From Candidatus Altimarinota bacterium (GTDB taxonomy: Bacteria > Patescibacteriota > Gracilibacteria > BD1-5 > UBA6164), in assembly GCA_028696815.1 (NCBI GenBank), contig JAQVGG010000003.1, positions 1 to 64,000 on the forward strand: a DNA stretch of 64,000 nucleotides, in the 5' to 3' direction. Below are positions 4,761-12,906 of the stretch, piece after piece. Position numbers and translations under genes: made by a program. A model generated the notes under the pieces. That model saw nothing but the letters and a program-made list of their open reading frames with translations, searched no databases and was not told where the DNA came from. The stretch's first letter is position 1; every line of letters begins with the position of its first letter.

Positions 4761-6023
4761 TTAAAAAAAGTTATTTATATGTTTGATTGTTCTTTTTATA
4801 TCTTTTTCTTTTAATAAGATATGATTGGGTAGTGTAATTATTCTAGAAGCTATATCTTCTGAAACTGGACAAGTTCAAGTTTGATATTTAGCAGCTTTTA
4901 AATCAGATCAAATCGGAACTATATTTGTTCCGCTCCATGAAGTTCATAATAAAACTTTATTTTTTTTCATATATTTTACAAATTCTTCCTTTTCTTTTTT
5001 ATCAGTAAGTAATATAGGATATCTATATGTATTTATTTTTTCATCACCTCATTCAATTAATAATGATCTTATTGAGGGTATAAGTTCCTTGTCATATAAA
5101 TGAGAAATCGCTCTTCTTTTTCTTGTAATTTCTTTAATGATTTCTAATTCTTTATTTGCCAGATAAGCCAGAGAATTTGGAAGTAAAAAGTTAAGTTTAT
5201 TGTTTTTGCATTTCTTTTCCTGTGGAGTCAGTATCTCATTTATAAGTTTTAGTTTTCTTGAAAGATAAATAATTATTTTTCATAGTCACAGAAAATCGTA
5301 AGTTTTATATGCTTTATATCACACTATATTATACATTAAATTTCTTACACAAGATAACCTATTAGCTATATCTAATTTTTCCATAGCTTTTATAGCAGAG
5401 TCAAAATAAATAGGGTTATTTATAAGTAAAAATCATCATGTAACACTAGATATAACTTTATCTCTTCAAGTTGAAAAAATAGCAAAATCTCAATAAGTTC
5501 AAGTTTTTTTTCTGTTAAATTCAGTTCAAAGACTATGGGCACAATCCTCAATAACAACTATATTATTTTCTGAAGCTAATTTTTTAATTTCTTCTATATG
5601 AGCTGTTTTTCAAAAAGTATGTTGAACTACAATAACTTTAGTATTTTTATTTATAGATGTCTTTAGTTTTTCTATATCAAAACTTAGAGTTTCTATATCT
5701 ATGTCTGAGTATGTAGGTTTTGCTCAGGATTGTATGACGGCATTTGATACGGAAACACAAGTATATCAGTTTATAATAACTTCATCAGATGATTTTACTC
5801 AAATGATTTTTAAAGCTTGATATAATGCACTTCTAGCATCATACATACTGATTATCTCACTATCTCAAGCTCACAAGTATATTTTTAAATTTTTTTCAAA
5901 CTTTCAGATGTCATCTCAAAATCTTAAACTAGAAGGTCTAAAAAATAATAGAAAAAAAGAACTTATAGCTTGTCTAAAAGATACAGTTGTAAAAAAGTCA
6001 GTAATTATTGTTTTATTAAACAT
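4761..6023 (-). CDS. DegT/DnrJ/EryC1-family aminotransferase
   Basis: 420 aa. PLP-dependent sugar aminotransferase family. YDARSALYQALKIIG and INGYTCVSVSNAVIQSGAKP match the cofactor fold; VIEDCAHSLGTEF carries the PLP-binding Asp, and FSTGRDKVISSVTGG carries the candidate PLP lysine. The start ATG at 6021-6023 gives an N-terminus ending in FRPSSLRFGDDIGKFEKNL, as in DegT relatives. Operonic with the FemAB gene downstream. Inferred role: amino-sugar formation for a glycan. Confidence 0.85.
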
Positions 6024-6293: not shown

Positions 6294-7112
6294 ATGCAAA
6301 CAACTAAATTAGCTATCTTTGAACAAAAAGAAATTAGAAAAATTATTTATGAAAATGAATGGTATTTTTCAGTTGTTGATATAGTTGAAGTATTAACTTG
6401 AAGTCCTACACCAAGACAATATTGGGGGAAAATTAAGACACGCGAATTTATAAAACTTGAACTGTCCCCAATTTGGGTACAGTTGAAAATGAAAGCATCA
6501 GACTGAAAAATGAGATTAACAGATTGTGTAAATACAAAAAATGCTTTTAGATTAATTCAATCAATACCAAGTAAAAAAGCTGAACCATTTAAAATGTGGC
6601 TAGCTCAAGTCTGAAAAGAAAGAATAGATGAGATAGAAAATCCAGAATTATCAATGGATAGAATGAAGGAATTATATGAACAAAAATGATATACAAAAGA
6701 CTGGATAGATAAAAGAACTAGGAGTATTGCAGTTAGACAAGATTTAACTGATGAATGGAAAGATAGATGAGTTCAATTTTGAAAAGAATATGCAATTTTA
6801 ACAGCAGAAATAAGTAAAGCAACTTTTTGAATGACACCAAGTGAATATAAAAATTTTAAATGATTAAAAAATGAAAATTTAAGAGATCATATGACAGATT
6901 TAGAATTAATTTTTAATATGTTAGCAGAAGCCTCTACAACAAAAATCATGAAAAACAAAGATTCTAAATGATTTAATGAGTGTAAACAAGCAGGTAGAGA
7001 ATGATGAAGTATTGCTTGAAATGCTAGAAAGGAGCTTGAAAATAAATCATGAGAAAAAATAATTACTAAGCAAAATTATTTAGAATGATGAGATAAGAAG
7101 AAGTTGAAATAG
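6294..7112 (+). CDS. BRO-N domain protein (phage antirepressor type)
   Basis: 272 aa. The N-terminal half is a BRO-N domain: IIYENEWYFSVVDIVEVLTGS, YWGKIKTRE, LRLTDCVNTKNAFRLIQSIP and SKKAEPFKMWLAQVG. The C-terminal half resembles proteins annotated as DNA-damage-inducible protein D or KilA/Ant-like: RSIAVRQDLTDEWKDRG, GMTPSEYKNFKGLK, TDLELIFNMLAEASTTKI, ending in AGREGGSIAGNARKELE. BRO-N binds DNA. It occurs in phages and mobile regions, fitting the accessory nature of this stretch. Many glycines are TGA, so it is well adapted to the host code. Confidence 0.85.
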
Positions 7113-7137
7113 TTTATTTTTATAAAAAGTTAAAATA

Positions 7138-7998
7138 ATGAAAAACTTGAATTGATATATATACTTAGTAATTTTCCTATTTTTAGAATGATTATTTCCA
7201 ATATTTTCATATTTTGCATTACAAACATTACCAACATTTTGGTTGGTGGCTTTTTCAATATGAGTGTCAATATTATTTTGATTAATAATATTTTTTAAAG
7301 AAAAACATTATAAACAATATAAGAAAAAAGAAATATTAATTCCAACATTTTTTTCAGCTTTATTTCTAGGAGCATGATGATTATTATATTTCTTTTGAAT
7401 TAAATATTCATCTCCATCAATAGCATCAATATTATTGTTACTTCAAAGCTTTTTTGCTTTTATAATATTTAATTTATTTTGAAAAGAAGAATATCATATT
7501 AAACAAGTTATATGAGCTTTATTAATGTTTGTATGATGAATAATAATTTTATATGATTGAAGTAGTTTTATAAATTTATGAGCTTGAATAATGTTTATAG
7601 CTTGAATAATATTTACTATTTGAAATTATTACACTAAACAAGCTAGTTTAGAATGAGCTAATCCATTTTTTCTATTAATAAATAGAAATTTTTTAATTGT
7701 AATAATTACAAGTATATTAGCTTTAATATTTGTTTGACCTATTGATGTTGAATTAATAAAACAAAATATAATTTGGATATTTTTAATTTGATTTTTTGTT
7801 TTATTTTTGTGAAAAGCTTTATGGGTTATTGCTCTTTCAAAATTAAATTCATTCGTGGCTATATCAAGTTTTCCTATAATTCCATTATTAGTAATCATAT
7901 TTTCATTTTTGATATTAAAAGAAATTCCAAGTTATAGAGAAGTTTTATGATTTATTCCTATATTAATAGGCGCTTTACTATTAACTAAAAAAGCTTAA
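7138..7998 (+). CDS. EamA/DMT-superfamily transporter
   Basis: 286 aa, ten predicted membrane helices in two five-helix repeats. Landmarks: LFLEGLFPIFSYFALQTLPT, a helix with LFLGAGGLLYFFGIKYSSPS, then ASILLLLQSFFAFII and, in the second repeat, GKALWVIALSKLNSFVAISS. The family exports small metabolites, often amino acids or nucleobases; the substrate cannot be read here. Begins 25 bases after the BRO-N gene, so may be co-transcribed. Followed by the hairpin at 8003. Confidence 0.9.
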
Positions 7999-8270
7999 TT
8001 TTCCGACTATAGTCGGATTCCCTAAAAAAAGCTCGTTATCACTCGCAAAAAAAGTTTTTGGTTTATTCTGAAAATTATCTATAGTACACAAAATCAACAA
8101 AAACAAAAAGTAGACGTAAAGGGGTGTTACACTTGATTTTTCATCATCAATTTACTGGAAAATCATCGAAATAATGAAAATCATCAGAAATTTTAAAAAA
8201 GAAGGGGGAAGAGAAAGAAAACTTGTTAAAACTCAAGTTATTTTATATTTTTATAATTTAATGAAAAGTT
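7999..8270. repeat. Dispersed repeat copy 1 with hairpin
   Basis: Starts with the perfect palindrome CCGACTATAGTCGG (8003-8016) just after a stop codon. Then GCTCGTTATCACTCGC (8031-8046) and two TGAAAATCATC-like motifs (8155-8190). The same order, hairpin then GCTCGTT..CACTTCGC, recurs at 11390-11690 and in related form at 8730-8930 and 12580-12780. Confidence 0.6.
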
Positions 8271-8717
8271 ATGAAAAGTTTTATAAAAAAAATATTATTA
8301 TCAATAATATCATCATATGCAATTAATACATTATTTTCATCTATTTTTTCTATTATTTGAATAAATTTATGATATTTTTTAGATATTATATTAAAAATAA
8401 TATTATTAATATCATTTTTAATAATATTTTTAAAAAATATTATTAAAACAAATTTTAAAACTTTTATATTTTTTATATATATTATAGTTATTTCCTTTAC
8501 TTTAAGTTTTTTATATTCTATATTGCTAGTTTTTGTAATGGGAAAACATTTTTTTCAAGAAGAGATGAATATATTAATTAATTATTTTGACTATTTAAAA
8601 CTATTATTAACTAATTATACAATTATTGAATTATTATATAATAGATTTTTTATTATATTTATTATACTTTTGTTAATACATTATATATTAATAAAAATTT
8701 TATTTAATAAAAAATAA
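8271..8717 (+). CDS. Small integral membrane protein
   Basis: 148 aa with about four hydrophobic helices (residues 5-25, 30-55, 65-90 and 125-145), mostly Ile, Leu, Phe and Asn. Contains two TGA-Gly codons near residues 27-31. An out-of-frame ATG sits 10 bases upstream in a direct repeat of ATGAAAAGTT. Function unknown. The repeat at 8718 follows immediately. Confidence 0.7.
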
Positions 8718-8990
8718 TTCATTTAGTTTCTCTAGACTATCATCCAGCCCTGTCTTTTTTAAAATTTAGAAACAAAATCATCTTTCTTAAAAGAAAAATG
8801 CTTTTACAAATAGATAAATCCAAAAGAAATACGGTAAACCCACATTGCATTCTCGCTCATACTTCACTCGGATCTGACAACAGCTTCTATGAAGTTCGCT
8901 CGTTGTGCTTCGCCGACCCATATTTACCTCCTCTATCGATACGGTAAACATCTCATATACTGAAACGTTGTCAGACATATTTGTCTTGGA
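8718..8990. repeat. Dispersed repeat copy 2
   Basis: Aligns over about 240 bases with 12580-12820 at roughly 75-80% identity by eye: TCTCTAGACTATCNTCCAGCCC, TTTTTTAAAATTTAGAAACAAAAT, AAATCCAAAAGAAATAC, CTCGCTCATACTTC. Frames differ between the copies and are interrupted in both, so this is noncoding or long-decayed sequence. Confidence 0.75.
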
Positions 8991-9173
8991 TTATTTGAAT
9001 AAAGATAAAAAGCAGTTTTGTTTTTCTTTTTTTTATCGGGATACTGAATGTCATCAAAAATAAAAAAGGAAAGGGTTTTGCTTTTTCAAAGCAATTTTAA
9101 AAAAGAAATAAAAAATTGATTAATTAAGAATTTTTCTTATAATAATTCTAACTTATACAACTAAGTAAAAATA
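8991..9173. other. Intergenic, no gene
   Basis: AT-rich. Contains another GATACTGAATGTCATCAAA motif (9040-9058) related to the repeat family. The region before the first leader ATG at 9174 includes TTCTTATAATAATTC, a plausible -10 region. Confidence 0.4.
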
Positions 9174-9236
9174 ATGAAAACTATAATATTAAACATCTCT
9201 TGGGAAAAACTAGTCTTTCTAAAAACAGAAAACTAG
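9174..9236 (+). CDS. Putative leader peptide 1 (20 aa)
   Basis: ATG to TAG encodes MKTIILNISWEKLVFLKTEN. Its 3' end lies in a hairpin (9205-9214 with 9232-9245), and a strong terminator follows at 9261. The size and the position before two terminator-like hairpins suggest a translated attenuator leader. No direct evidence of translation. Confidence 0.4.
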   Translation: MKTIILNISWEKLVFLKTEN

Positions 9237-9260
9237 TGTTTTTATAATATAAAAAATCAC

Positions 9261-9308
9261 AACTGTTATTTGGAAAGATTAAAATATCACAAATAACAGT
9301 TTTTTTAT
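9261..9308 (+). terminator. Terminator in the leader of the 9470 gene
   Basis: An 11-bp perfect stem, AACTGTTATTT/AAATAACAGTT, with a 19-base loop and a run of seven T. It lies between two short leader ORFs, so transcription reaching 9470 must pass it. Confidence 0.8.
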
Positions 9309-9327
9309 TGTTTAAAATTAAAGATAT

Positions 9328-9387
9328 ATGAAAAGCTTATTTTATAAAATAATTTGGTGGAGAACATTATTTTGGTGGTTATTATAA
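9328..9387 (+). CDS. Trp-rich leader peptide 2 (19 aa)
   Basis: Encodes MKSLFYKIIWWRTLFWWLL. There are two Trp-Trp pairs (9355-9360 and 9373-9378), which is remarkable in an AT-rich genome where TGG is rare. The DNA at each pair reads TTTGGTGG, the same as the 3' arm of the terminator at 9427-9445, so the terminator's 5' arm ACCACC could pair with either. Classic features of a translation-coupled attenuator; function inferred. Confidence 0.55.
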   Translation: MKSLFYKIIWWRTLFWWLL

Positions 9388-9394
9388 ATTAATA

Positions 9395-9450
9395 CTGCTT
9401 GTTTTTAAGTACAAGCAAAATTGTTTACCACCAGTTTTTGGTGGTTTTTT
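9395..9450 (+). promoter_or_regulatory. Attenuator hairpins before the 9470 gene
   Basis: Hairpin TGCTTG/CAAGCA (9395-9416), then a terminator ACCACCA/TGGTGGT (9427-9433/9439-9445) followed by T-run. The terminator 5' arm is complementary to both Trp-codon blocks in the leader, giving mutually exclusive structures. Ends 20 bases before the gene start. Confidence 0.65.
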
Positions 9451-9469
9451 TATTTTTTAAATTAAATTT

Positions 9470-10981
9470 ATGAAATTATTAGAGAATTGATGAAGAATTA
9501 AATCAGCAAGTGTTTGATATAATTCAATTAATCCAAGTTTAACATTAGACTTTCAATGAAGAGTCAAAGAGATAATTAACTGAGAATCTAATGATATAAA
9601 TACATGATTCTTCCCAAAAGTATGAAGATCTTTAAGAACATCTTTAAATAGGCAACCTTTAAGACCTATGATTAGTACTCACCAATGAATGCCAGGAAAT
9701 TTTTATCCTTTTTATGCTTCAAATAGTATTGATGAAATTTTACATTACAACTATCATAGTGAACATTTTGAAGCAATATTAGAACCAAGATATAAAGGAT
9801 TAGTTAATGAACAACAGGAAGTAGATTTTATTAATTATATGGCAAAAAAAGATTTAAGAAAAGCATATTGAGTTATATCATGAATTAATCAAAATGATAG
9901 AGCTTTTGAGAAATGAAGAATTCCTTTCTTTATATGTAGACCTGCTAGTACTGTTAATGATGTAAAATTACCTTCTACAATAGTACCTAAAATTGAGAAT
10001 GAGGTTAATAAAACTATAGGAGAGATATGCTGATTAGCATCTTATTTAGAATACCTATTCCAACATGGTAGATGTCCTGATAAAACCGATATTATCTGAT
10101 ATTTATTACAAAAAGATAGTTTACCTGATACAGTTATCCCTAGTTATTTTTGAGATTCTATTATTTATTTTCAAGCGGATACATTCATCAATTTAAATTG
10201 ATAAGTAAGTGTAGAAGCTATACAAATGCCAGATGTATGATTTTTCTTAAAAAATTTATCTGATAGATGAAGTTTAAGTAAGATTAAACTAATAAATGCT
10301 GGTTTAAGAGAAAATGTTATAAATAGCATATTAGACTCTGATTTTCCAAATGTTAGTATAATAACAAGACCGAATGTAGTGGAAAACAATGAAGATTTAT
10401 TGGAGATAAACAAAATAGAAGTTATGAAGTCTGAACTAGAAAAAGGTTGAAAAGTAATAAAAATTTCCTCTACTAAAGATTTTGTTTTTAAAGAAGATAT
10501 ATTATATTTACTTATGGATATAGATTATAACGATTTATCCAATTTAAGTAATTTATTTGAATTAGCTATAAAATATCCAAGAAATTTTTCACCAAACCCT
10601 TTTGTACAGCTAGCTTCTCAGTATGTCATTTGATTCAAAAGTATATACTTATATGAGGGGCAAGATATACAAAAACTATCAAGAGTTGTGACACCAAACC
10701 ATAATAAAATATCTCAAAGTACATTGGAAAATATAGAAAATTATTTTAATAGCTTGTGACTTGATCCAAATAAGAGAATAATAAATATAAAAAAATGATC
10801 TACAGATGAAATTCTATATGTATCTAGAGATTCTTTATATTCCTTAAGAAAAATAGCAAAATTTATAGAGTGAGAAAAGTTTGTAGAAATAATTGAAGTA
10901 CCTTTTGTTGATTGAGAGCAAATTATATCTAAAAATTGAAATGATTTACTACATATGTATCGTTTTATGTTTATTAATTAA
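9470..10981 (+). pseudogene. Unknown ~503-aa protein, split by in-frame TAA
   Basis: One reading frame of 504 codons holds a single TAA at 10202-10204 (codon 245), flanked by sequence that reads on smoothly: FINLNG-stop-VSVEAIQMPDVGFFL. A CAA to TAA change would explain it. The first half contains FPKVGRSLRTSLNRQPLRP, IPFFICRPAS and YFQADTFINLNG; the second half contains SIITRPNVVE and FPN/FVQLASQYVIGFKSIYLYEG. No family recognised. The second part could restart at ATG 10226. Preceded by a Trp-rich leader with terminators, so expression is apparently regulated. Confidence 0.65.
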
Positions 10982-10992
10982 ATTTTAACATT

Positions 10993-11361
10993 ATGAATAA
11001 ATTAAATTTTGATGAAGTATTAATAAAAATATCAAAGGATATTATTAATGCAAAAAATAGAATTTATGCTACACATCTAATAAAAACAGAAGAAGATTTT
11101 AATCTTCCTATAGTTTATATTAATGCTCTCAAAAGTTCTAAATGTAAAAACAAGAAAAGAGTTATTTTTGGTGATAAAGAATTATTTAATTATTTTAATA
11201 ATAATGAAAAATATTTTAAAAATCATTTTTCAAATAAGATCTATTTTAGAATGTTATTAATTGATGATAAACTTTATTTTAAGTATCAAGATAATTTCTA
11301 TATGACTAAAGAAAAAGATATTATTTGTTTATTTGAAGGATATTTTAGTTATATAAATTAA
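10993..11361 (+). CDS. Hypothetical protein, 122 aa
   Basis: ATG 10993 to TAA, 11 bases after the 9470 frame ends, so probably the same transcript. Lys/Asn/Phe-rich with no TGA codon and only two Gly (GGT, GGA). Segments KNRIYATHLIKTEEDFNLPI, KKRVIFGDKELFNYF and YFRMLLIDDKLYFKYQDNFY suggest an alpha/beta fold. The last third resembles the solvent-exposed strands of phospholipase-D-like effector domains, but this is weak. Function unknown. Confidence 0.65.
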   Translation: MNKLNFDEVLIKISKDIINAKNRIYATHLIKTEEDFNLPIVYINALKSSKCKNKKRVIFGDKELFNYFNNNEKYFKNHFSNKIYFRMLLIDDKLYFKYQDNFYMTKEKDIICLFEGYFSYIN

Positions 11362-12554: not shown

Positions 12555-12906
12555 TTTATATTTCAAACTCTGTGGAACTCTCTCTAGACTATCGTCCAGC
12601 CCCGTCTTTTTTAAAATTTAGAAACAAAATTATCTTTTCTCAAAAAGAAAAATGCTTTTACAAAAAAGATAAATCCAAAAGAAATACAGTAAACCCTCGT
12701 TACACTCTCGCTCATACTTCGCTCGTGTCTGACAACAGCTTCTATGAGGTTTGCATCAAAGCACTTTGCTCTCCCATATTTTGCTCATTCTTCGAAAAAT
12801 ATCTCATAAAAACAAACGTTAAATGTAATTTGTAACTTTCCAAAAAAATAAAAACAGGGGCTCTAAATAAACAAATAAATAGATTTATATTATTTTTTTT
12901 AAATTT
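12555..12906. repeat. Dispersed repeat copy 4
   Basis: Starts at the stop codon of the preceding gene: CTCTGTGGAACTCTCTCTAG, a degenerate hairpin AGACTATCGTCC, then a near copy of 8730-8930 and the ending CTCGCTCATACTTCGCTCG. An 87-codon frame across it is not conserved in the 8718 copy, so I treat it as noncoding. Confidence 0.75.

Follow-up and report, generated by a model that had tools for sequence, protein, structure and literature searches.

In the trpL leader of Escherichia coli, the Trp codons of the control region are codons 10 and 11 (PMC1183508). The trp attenuators of actinobacteria (Corynebacterium, Streptomyces) combine a leader peptide containing double or triple UGG codons with complementary triples common to the antiterminator and the terminator (PMC1262725). 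In the Salmonella mgtCBR leader, two short ORFs each lie within an attenuator and sense ATP and Pro-tRNA (PMC3641672), and in TnaC, the Trp-linked leader peptide of tryptophanase, free Trp arrests the ribosome on the nascent chain (PMC8429421). Searches of the literature outside subscription journals returned no paper that joins Patescibacteria with transcription attenuation, and among the results listed for Gracilibacteria or for the candidate phyla radiation, none dealt with leader peptides or attenuation.

Here we describe a locus in a gracilibacterial contig, within a stretch of 64,000 nucleotides (the window). Annotated under both genetic code 25 (UGA = Gly) and table 11, the region shows a dense array of long genes under code 25 only; the table 11 annotation was discarded because UGA is frequent within genes. 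The leader elements listed in Table 1 begin with a promoter-like site and occupy window positions 9116–9470, in the gap between a gene end at 8717 and a gene start at 9470. An earlier note on this DNA had proposed a Trp-codon attenuator with tandem leader peptides, and this part of the proposal stands: there are two short ORFs, and downstream of each lies a hairpin that carries a U tract. Its suggestion that the logic may be opposite to that of the trp operon is not supported, as discussed below. We consider it very likely, from sequence and modeling, that the region encodes two ribosome-mediated transcription attenuators in series on one leader transcript, both sensing charged tRNA-Trp.

Table 1. 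Features of the predicted tandem attenuators and the gene that follows them (window coordinates).
Feature	Position	Strand	Remarks
Sigma-70-like promoter, TTGATT-16 nt-TATAAT	9116–9143	+	10/12 consensus matches; upstream of leader 1
Leader peptide 1, MKTIILNISWEKLVFLKTEN-stop	9174–9236	+	ORF; paralogue MNTIILSNNWKNLFLSKKQK-stop before trpEG in the same genome
Leader 1 sensor Trp codon (codon 10)	9201–9203	+	Position common to 15 of 19 leaders and E. coli trpL
Antiterminator segment A1, within leader 1	9216–9228	+	15–27 nt past sensor codon; from base-pair probabilities with ribosome at W10
Terminator 1	9261–9301	+	-11.9 kcal/mol, U tract; z -4.7; 5′ arm predicted to pair with A1 or own 3′ arm
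Leader peptide 2, MKSLFYKIIWWRTLFWWLL-stop	9328–9387	+	ORF; paralogue MKSIFYKIIWWTTRGWWFFI-stop before trpEG
Leader 2 sensor Trp codons 10–11 (first WW)	9355–9360	+	Predicted switch flips as ribosome passes codons 12–13
Leader 2 second WW (codons 16–17)	9373–9378	+	
Antiterminator segment A2, essentially Trp codons 16–17	9373–9379	+	6 of 7 pairing nucleotides within Trp codons
Spacer hairpin TGCTTG/CAAGCA, between A2 and terminator	9396–9417	+	From terminator scan
Terminator 2, ACCACC/GGTGGT	9427–9445	+	-9.5 kcal/mol, then U tract; 5′ arm predicted to pair with A2 or own 3′ arm
First part of the controlled gene (244 aa under code 25)	9470–10204	+	Homologous to N-terminal half of 478/497-aa G381 protein
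Same frame past one in-frame TAA (10202–10204)	10205–10981	+	Homologous to C-terminal half of G381 protein

The transcription start that the proposal called for upstream of position 9174 has a candidate in the sigma-70-like site, whose score was equaled in only 4% of 90-nt segments drawn at random from the window. Upstream of the first leader in nine of the ten other leader clusters described below, an exact TTGACA occurs with a 15- or 16-nt spacer.

Each attenuator is proposed to consist of one or more sensor Trp codons at codon 10; a segment A, 12–20 nt further on; a terminator composed of a 5′ arm, B, and a 3′ arm, A′; and a U tract. A and A′ are near copies, the stretch of ORF designated A mimicking the 3′ arm of the terminator. 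When Trp is short, the ribosome would stall at the sensor codon and leave A free to pair with B once B has been made; with A and B paired the terminator could not form, and RNA polymerase would read on. When Trp is plentiful, the ribosome would reach the stop codon and cover A, so that B would pair with A′ and transcription would stop. In leader 2, the first WW would serve as the sensor and the second as the antiterminator arm. The earlier note had observed that WW occurs twice in this leader with codon DNA equal to the terminator 3′ arm, and indeed TTTGGTGG lies at each of the two WW pairs as well as in the terminator 2 hairpin. The gene would be transcribed only when both gates are passed, and their effects may multiply. 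We infer that the leaders are translated and that they respond to Trp in vivo. The spacer hairpin, which has equivalents in the leaders of the trpEG gene of the same genome and of genomes G009 and G065, is a possible RNA polymerase pause or synchronizing hairpin.

The window leaders resemble E. coli trpL in having a short leader ORF whose Trp codons stand at positions 10–11 (MKSLFYKIIWWRT...), mutually exclusive 2:3 and 3:4 pairings, and readthrough as the predicted outcome of starvation. Unlike trpL, they have no predicted 1:2 hairpin to protect segment 2, there are two attenuators in series, and segment 2 lies inside the ORF, where in leader 2 it coincides with Trp codons. The Rfam family Trp_leader (RF00513) had no match in 9100–9480 at E values up to 10 (the E. 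coli positive control scored 93 bits), and the Rfam search of the leader region gave no relevant family. Instead of the 1:2 hairpin with Trp codons that RF00513 adopts when no ribosome is present, the predicted state of both window leaders is the antiterminator. The complementary triples and the UGG-containing leader peptides are shared with the actinobacterial attenuators, which differ in their GC-rich terminators and standard genetic code, and the accessible portion of that account does not mention tandem leaders (PMC1262725). The two ORFs recall the mgtCBR arrangement, but here both appear to sense Trp. In contrast to TnaC, the predicted sensor is the Trp codons themselves.

Folding analyses were consistent with the proposed pairings. 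A simple consensus scan for terminators across 8000–11000 found 3 sites, compared with 0.3 ± 0.6 in shuffled sequences; two of these are the hairpin at 9395–9418, detected once per strand, and terminator 1 was missed because its loop is long. As the earlier note had supposed, the terminator 5′ arm can pair with the codon region in place of its own 3′ arm. The antiterminator at 9214–9283 has a z score of -3.6 and was equaled by 0 of 200 shuffles, and that at 9368–9436 has a z score of -3.5 and was equaled by 1 of 200. Because equilibrium folding of the whole leader told little, for E. coli as well, the effect of ribosome position was computed on the nascent transcript at the point where the 3′ arm is about to emerge. 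In most leaders the terminator prevails at full equilibrium despite a stalled ribosome, as it does in the E. coli control, and the switch must therefore be kinetic.

Across 19 leaders, two from the window and 17 from the loci described below, mean predicted blocking of the 5′ arm was 0.87 when the ribosome stood at the first Trp codon but 0.12 when it stood at the stop codon; the corresponding values for E. coli trpL in an identical run were 0.62 and 0.01. The contrast persists whichever 3′ ribosome edge between 8 and 18 nt is assumed. Against dinucleotide shuffles of the region between ribosome and terminator, the summed switch was 14.4 compared with a null of 4.1 ± 1.0 (maximum 7.0), about 10 sd above the shuffles, for a set of leaders that are partly related (e.g. 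those of G031, G065 and G066), hence not fully independent, and some of which were chosen partly by pairing energy. Taken singly, the switch of window leader 1 was matched by 0 of 150 shuffles, and that of leader 2, by itself only moderately unusual, by 10 of 150. With the ribosome at the first Trp codon, the A segment starts 12–20 nt past that codon in 15 of the 19 leaders, and thus just beyond the stalled ribosome, where RNA emerges; the offsets in the others are 23, 26, 34 and 34. The genome is AT-rich, short ORFs near terminators are common, and many weak ones appeared in the scan, as would be expected if the elements were ordinary unconditional terminators beside chance short ORFs. The size of the summed switch argues against this, as does the conservation of the arrangement, which is seen twice in this genome and, ahead of trp genes, in different families of the order, and we regard coincidence as scarcely credible.

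The leader 2 codons were then considered individually. Predicted blocking was 0.99 with the ribosome at codons 10–11, 0.85 at codon 12, 0.40 at codon 13 and 0.22–0.29 from codon 14 to the stop, and both WW pairs are predicted to be able to pair with the 5′ arm. These values bear on the opposite logic suggested by the earlier note, in which the codon arm is masked by a ribosome stalled on Trp codons and the 5′ arm is freed, so that the gene is off under starvation. Holding the ribosome at the second WW would indeed free the 5′ arm (predicted blocking 0.24–0.27), but the two WW pairs had been treated as one site, and a starved ribosome meets the first pair first. Stopping at codon 10 or 11, it would expose codons 16–17, and the terminator would be blocked. 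In addition, the design also precedes complete trp operons, where shut-off on starvation would make no sense, and about half of the leaders have A segments that pair without any Trp-codon nucleotides. Opposite logic is thus very improbable, and Trp starvation is probably followed by readthrough and Trp plenty by termination, as modeled here and as in the E. coli trp operon. Stalling at codons 16–17 would favor termination and could sharpen the response. When no ribosome is present, both window leaders are predicted to favor the antiterminator (0.81 and 0.89, compared with 0.30 for E. coli). This preference, together with the predicted absence of a 1:2 hairpin, implies that loss of translation should raise rather than lower readthrough.

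Conservation, on which the earlier note had also made its proposal depend, was found within the genome itself. A blastn search with the leader DNA identified a second copy on contig C30, in which MNTIILSNNWKNLFLSKKQK-stop, a terminator, MKSIFYKIIWWTTRGWWFFI-stop and a second terminator are followed by a gene for a 604-aa TrpE-TrpG fusion (L007, 664–2478) with chorismate-binding and class I GATase domains. Its closest named relatives are from a Patescibacteria MAG (UBA6489) and a Candidatus Gracilibacteria MAG. Further blastn matches, in L003 and L004, were rejected as AT-rich chance matches, and two more ATG-N24-TGGTGG sites were rejected since both lie within long genes.

A search of 77 genomes of the order recovered TrpEG relatives from 14. 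The regions upstream were searched first for short ORFs with Trp codons, the leaders from this step being chosen by Trp codons alone, and then over larger stretches with a leader-plus-terminator scan. The resulting set comprises 19 leaders from 10 of the order's genomes, and 15 of these leaders precede Trp genes or hisIE: trpEG (G009, G007, G022, G036 and G053), trpC-D-F-EG-B-A (G031 and G066), trpD-EG (G065), trpB-A (G027) and hisIE (G036, leader with W-H codons). Two of the remainder precede a gene in G053 for a 185-aa product without a Pfam match, and two precede the window gene. Leaders are paired in tandem in the window, before the trpEG of the same genome, and in G065, G027, G036 and G053. 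Several relatives' trpEG or trp loci, including those in G037, G039, G004 and G008 and on contig C56 of G009, had no such leader. Three leaders (those of G009 and G022 and leader 2 of G065) contain UGA codons and are readable only under code 25. The features of a ribosome-mediated Trp attenuator are found at these loci: a conserved Trp-codon leader ORF, an intrinsic terminator between ORF and gene, an antiterminator predicted to share a terminator arm and to depend on ribosome position, and, for the trpEG paralogue and the relatives, a Trp gene downstream.

The leader peptides diverge freely between genomes except at the Trp position, and the RNA pairing is kept. This pattern argues against the ORFs being functional small proteins, or the attenuated RNA acting in trans, as described for peTrpL of Sinorhizobium meliloti (PMC7298713). 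Leader peptides do act in trans elsewhere, and the N-terminal residues of the two copies in this genome are alike; even so, we give this reading very little credence.

Some relatives depart from the simple pattern. Tandem leaders that mix Trp and His codons (ASWHH/ASWHR and IWHHFLSH; L041 minus strand, reverse complement of 7094–7310, and L039, 5815–6027) precede the G036 hisIE gene and the 185-aa gene of G053, possibly for dual Trp/His sensing. For leader 2 of each, the offset of 34 nt would fall to about 15–18 if sensing is done by the His codons of the W-H-H block. In leader 1 of each, the predicted -10 box ends 6 nt before the ATG, which suggests a leaderless first ORF. G066 seems to retain a second-leader remnant, MQLHIKRNIWYKTSFWHFFF, with no clear terminator (L048 minus strand, reverse complement of about 5540–5605). 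The tandem Trp leaders before trpB-trpA of G027 are on L052 (minus strand, reverse complement of 668–922), and trpC and TrpEG matches were not found in that genome.

The gene downstream of the window attenuators had no match in Pfam, NCBIfam or PHROGs (9470–10204), no relative in genome_contigs, viral_contigs or phage records, and no matching solved structure. Among 379 genomes of the phylum its only clear relative is the G381 protein (L054), which is continuous and covers both 9470–10204 and 10226–10981. Homology of the next ORF (10993–11361) to the gene after the G381 homologue was not supported by BLASTP. The in-frame TAA interrupts 504 codons of otherwise open frame. It may have arisen recently as a nonsense mutation, mark a natural split or reflect an error of assembly. 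It could also mean that a trp leader cassette was duplicated before a gene that has since been broken, leaving an attenuator that no longer matters. Both halves match one continuous protein, and leader 1 pairs less strongly here (-10.1) than its counterpart before trpEG does (-15.8). But the terminators, sensors and pairings of both leaders are all intact, the frame past the TAA remains open to 10981, and a sequencing error or natural split is possible. Decay of this kind is unlikely, though we give it more weight than the other alternatives, and functional tandem attenuation is still the preferred interpretation.

The genome assembly is 98.8% complete with 6.2% contamination, and no trpC, trpA or PLP-dependent TrpB-type (PALP-family) gene was found in it. 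Its trpEG is therefore an orphan, yet it is under tandem Trp attenuators; G007, G022, G036 and G053 likewise lack trpC and trpA. In a probably host-dependent bacterium that seemingly makes no Trp, the attenuators might switch on the orphan anthranilate synthase and the window gene at Trp exhaustion to serve exchange or signaling instead of Trp synthesis, although we hold this idea to be doubtful.

The tandem layout and the lineage appear to be undescribed, and the working principle is the textbook one of E. coli. What would be new, if the model is correct, is the lineage, the use of two serial attenuators for the same signal, the Trp codons that double as an antiterminator arm, the unusual targets, and a predicted compact form that dispenses with the protective 1:2 hairpin. 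Ribosome-mediated attenuation would then extend to Gracilibacteria, with their reduced genomes and reassigned stop codon, where some leaders need UGA to be read as Gly. Attenuators would be used in series for one signal, and leaders of this kind could offer a way to find Trp-responsive genes in mostly uncultured organisms, such as the window gene, hisIE with Trp/His codons and the orphan trpEG.

Two other features lie near the locus. Direct repeats at 8729–8899 and 12581–12754 (89% identity over 70 nt and 80% over 123 nt), 3.85 kb apart, flank the attenuators and the gene from 9470. An EamA-family transporter gene at 7138–7998, 1.2 kb upstream of the attenuators, encodes a protein weakly similar to the aromatic amino acid exporter YddG.
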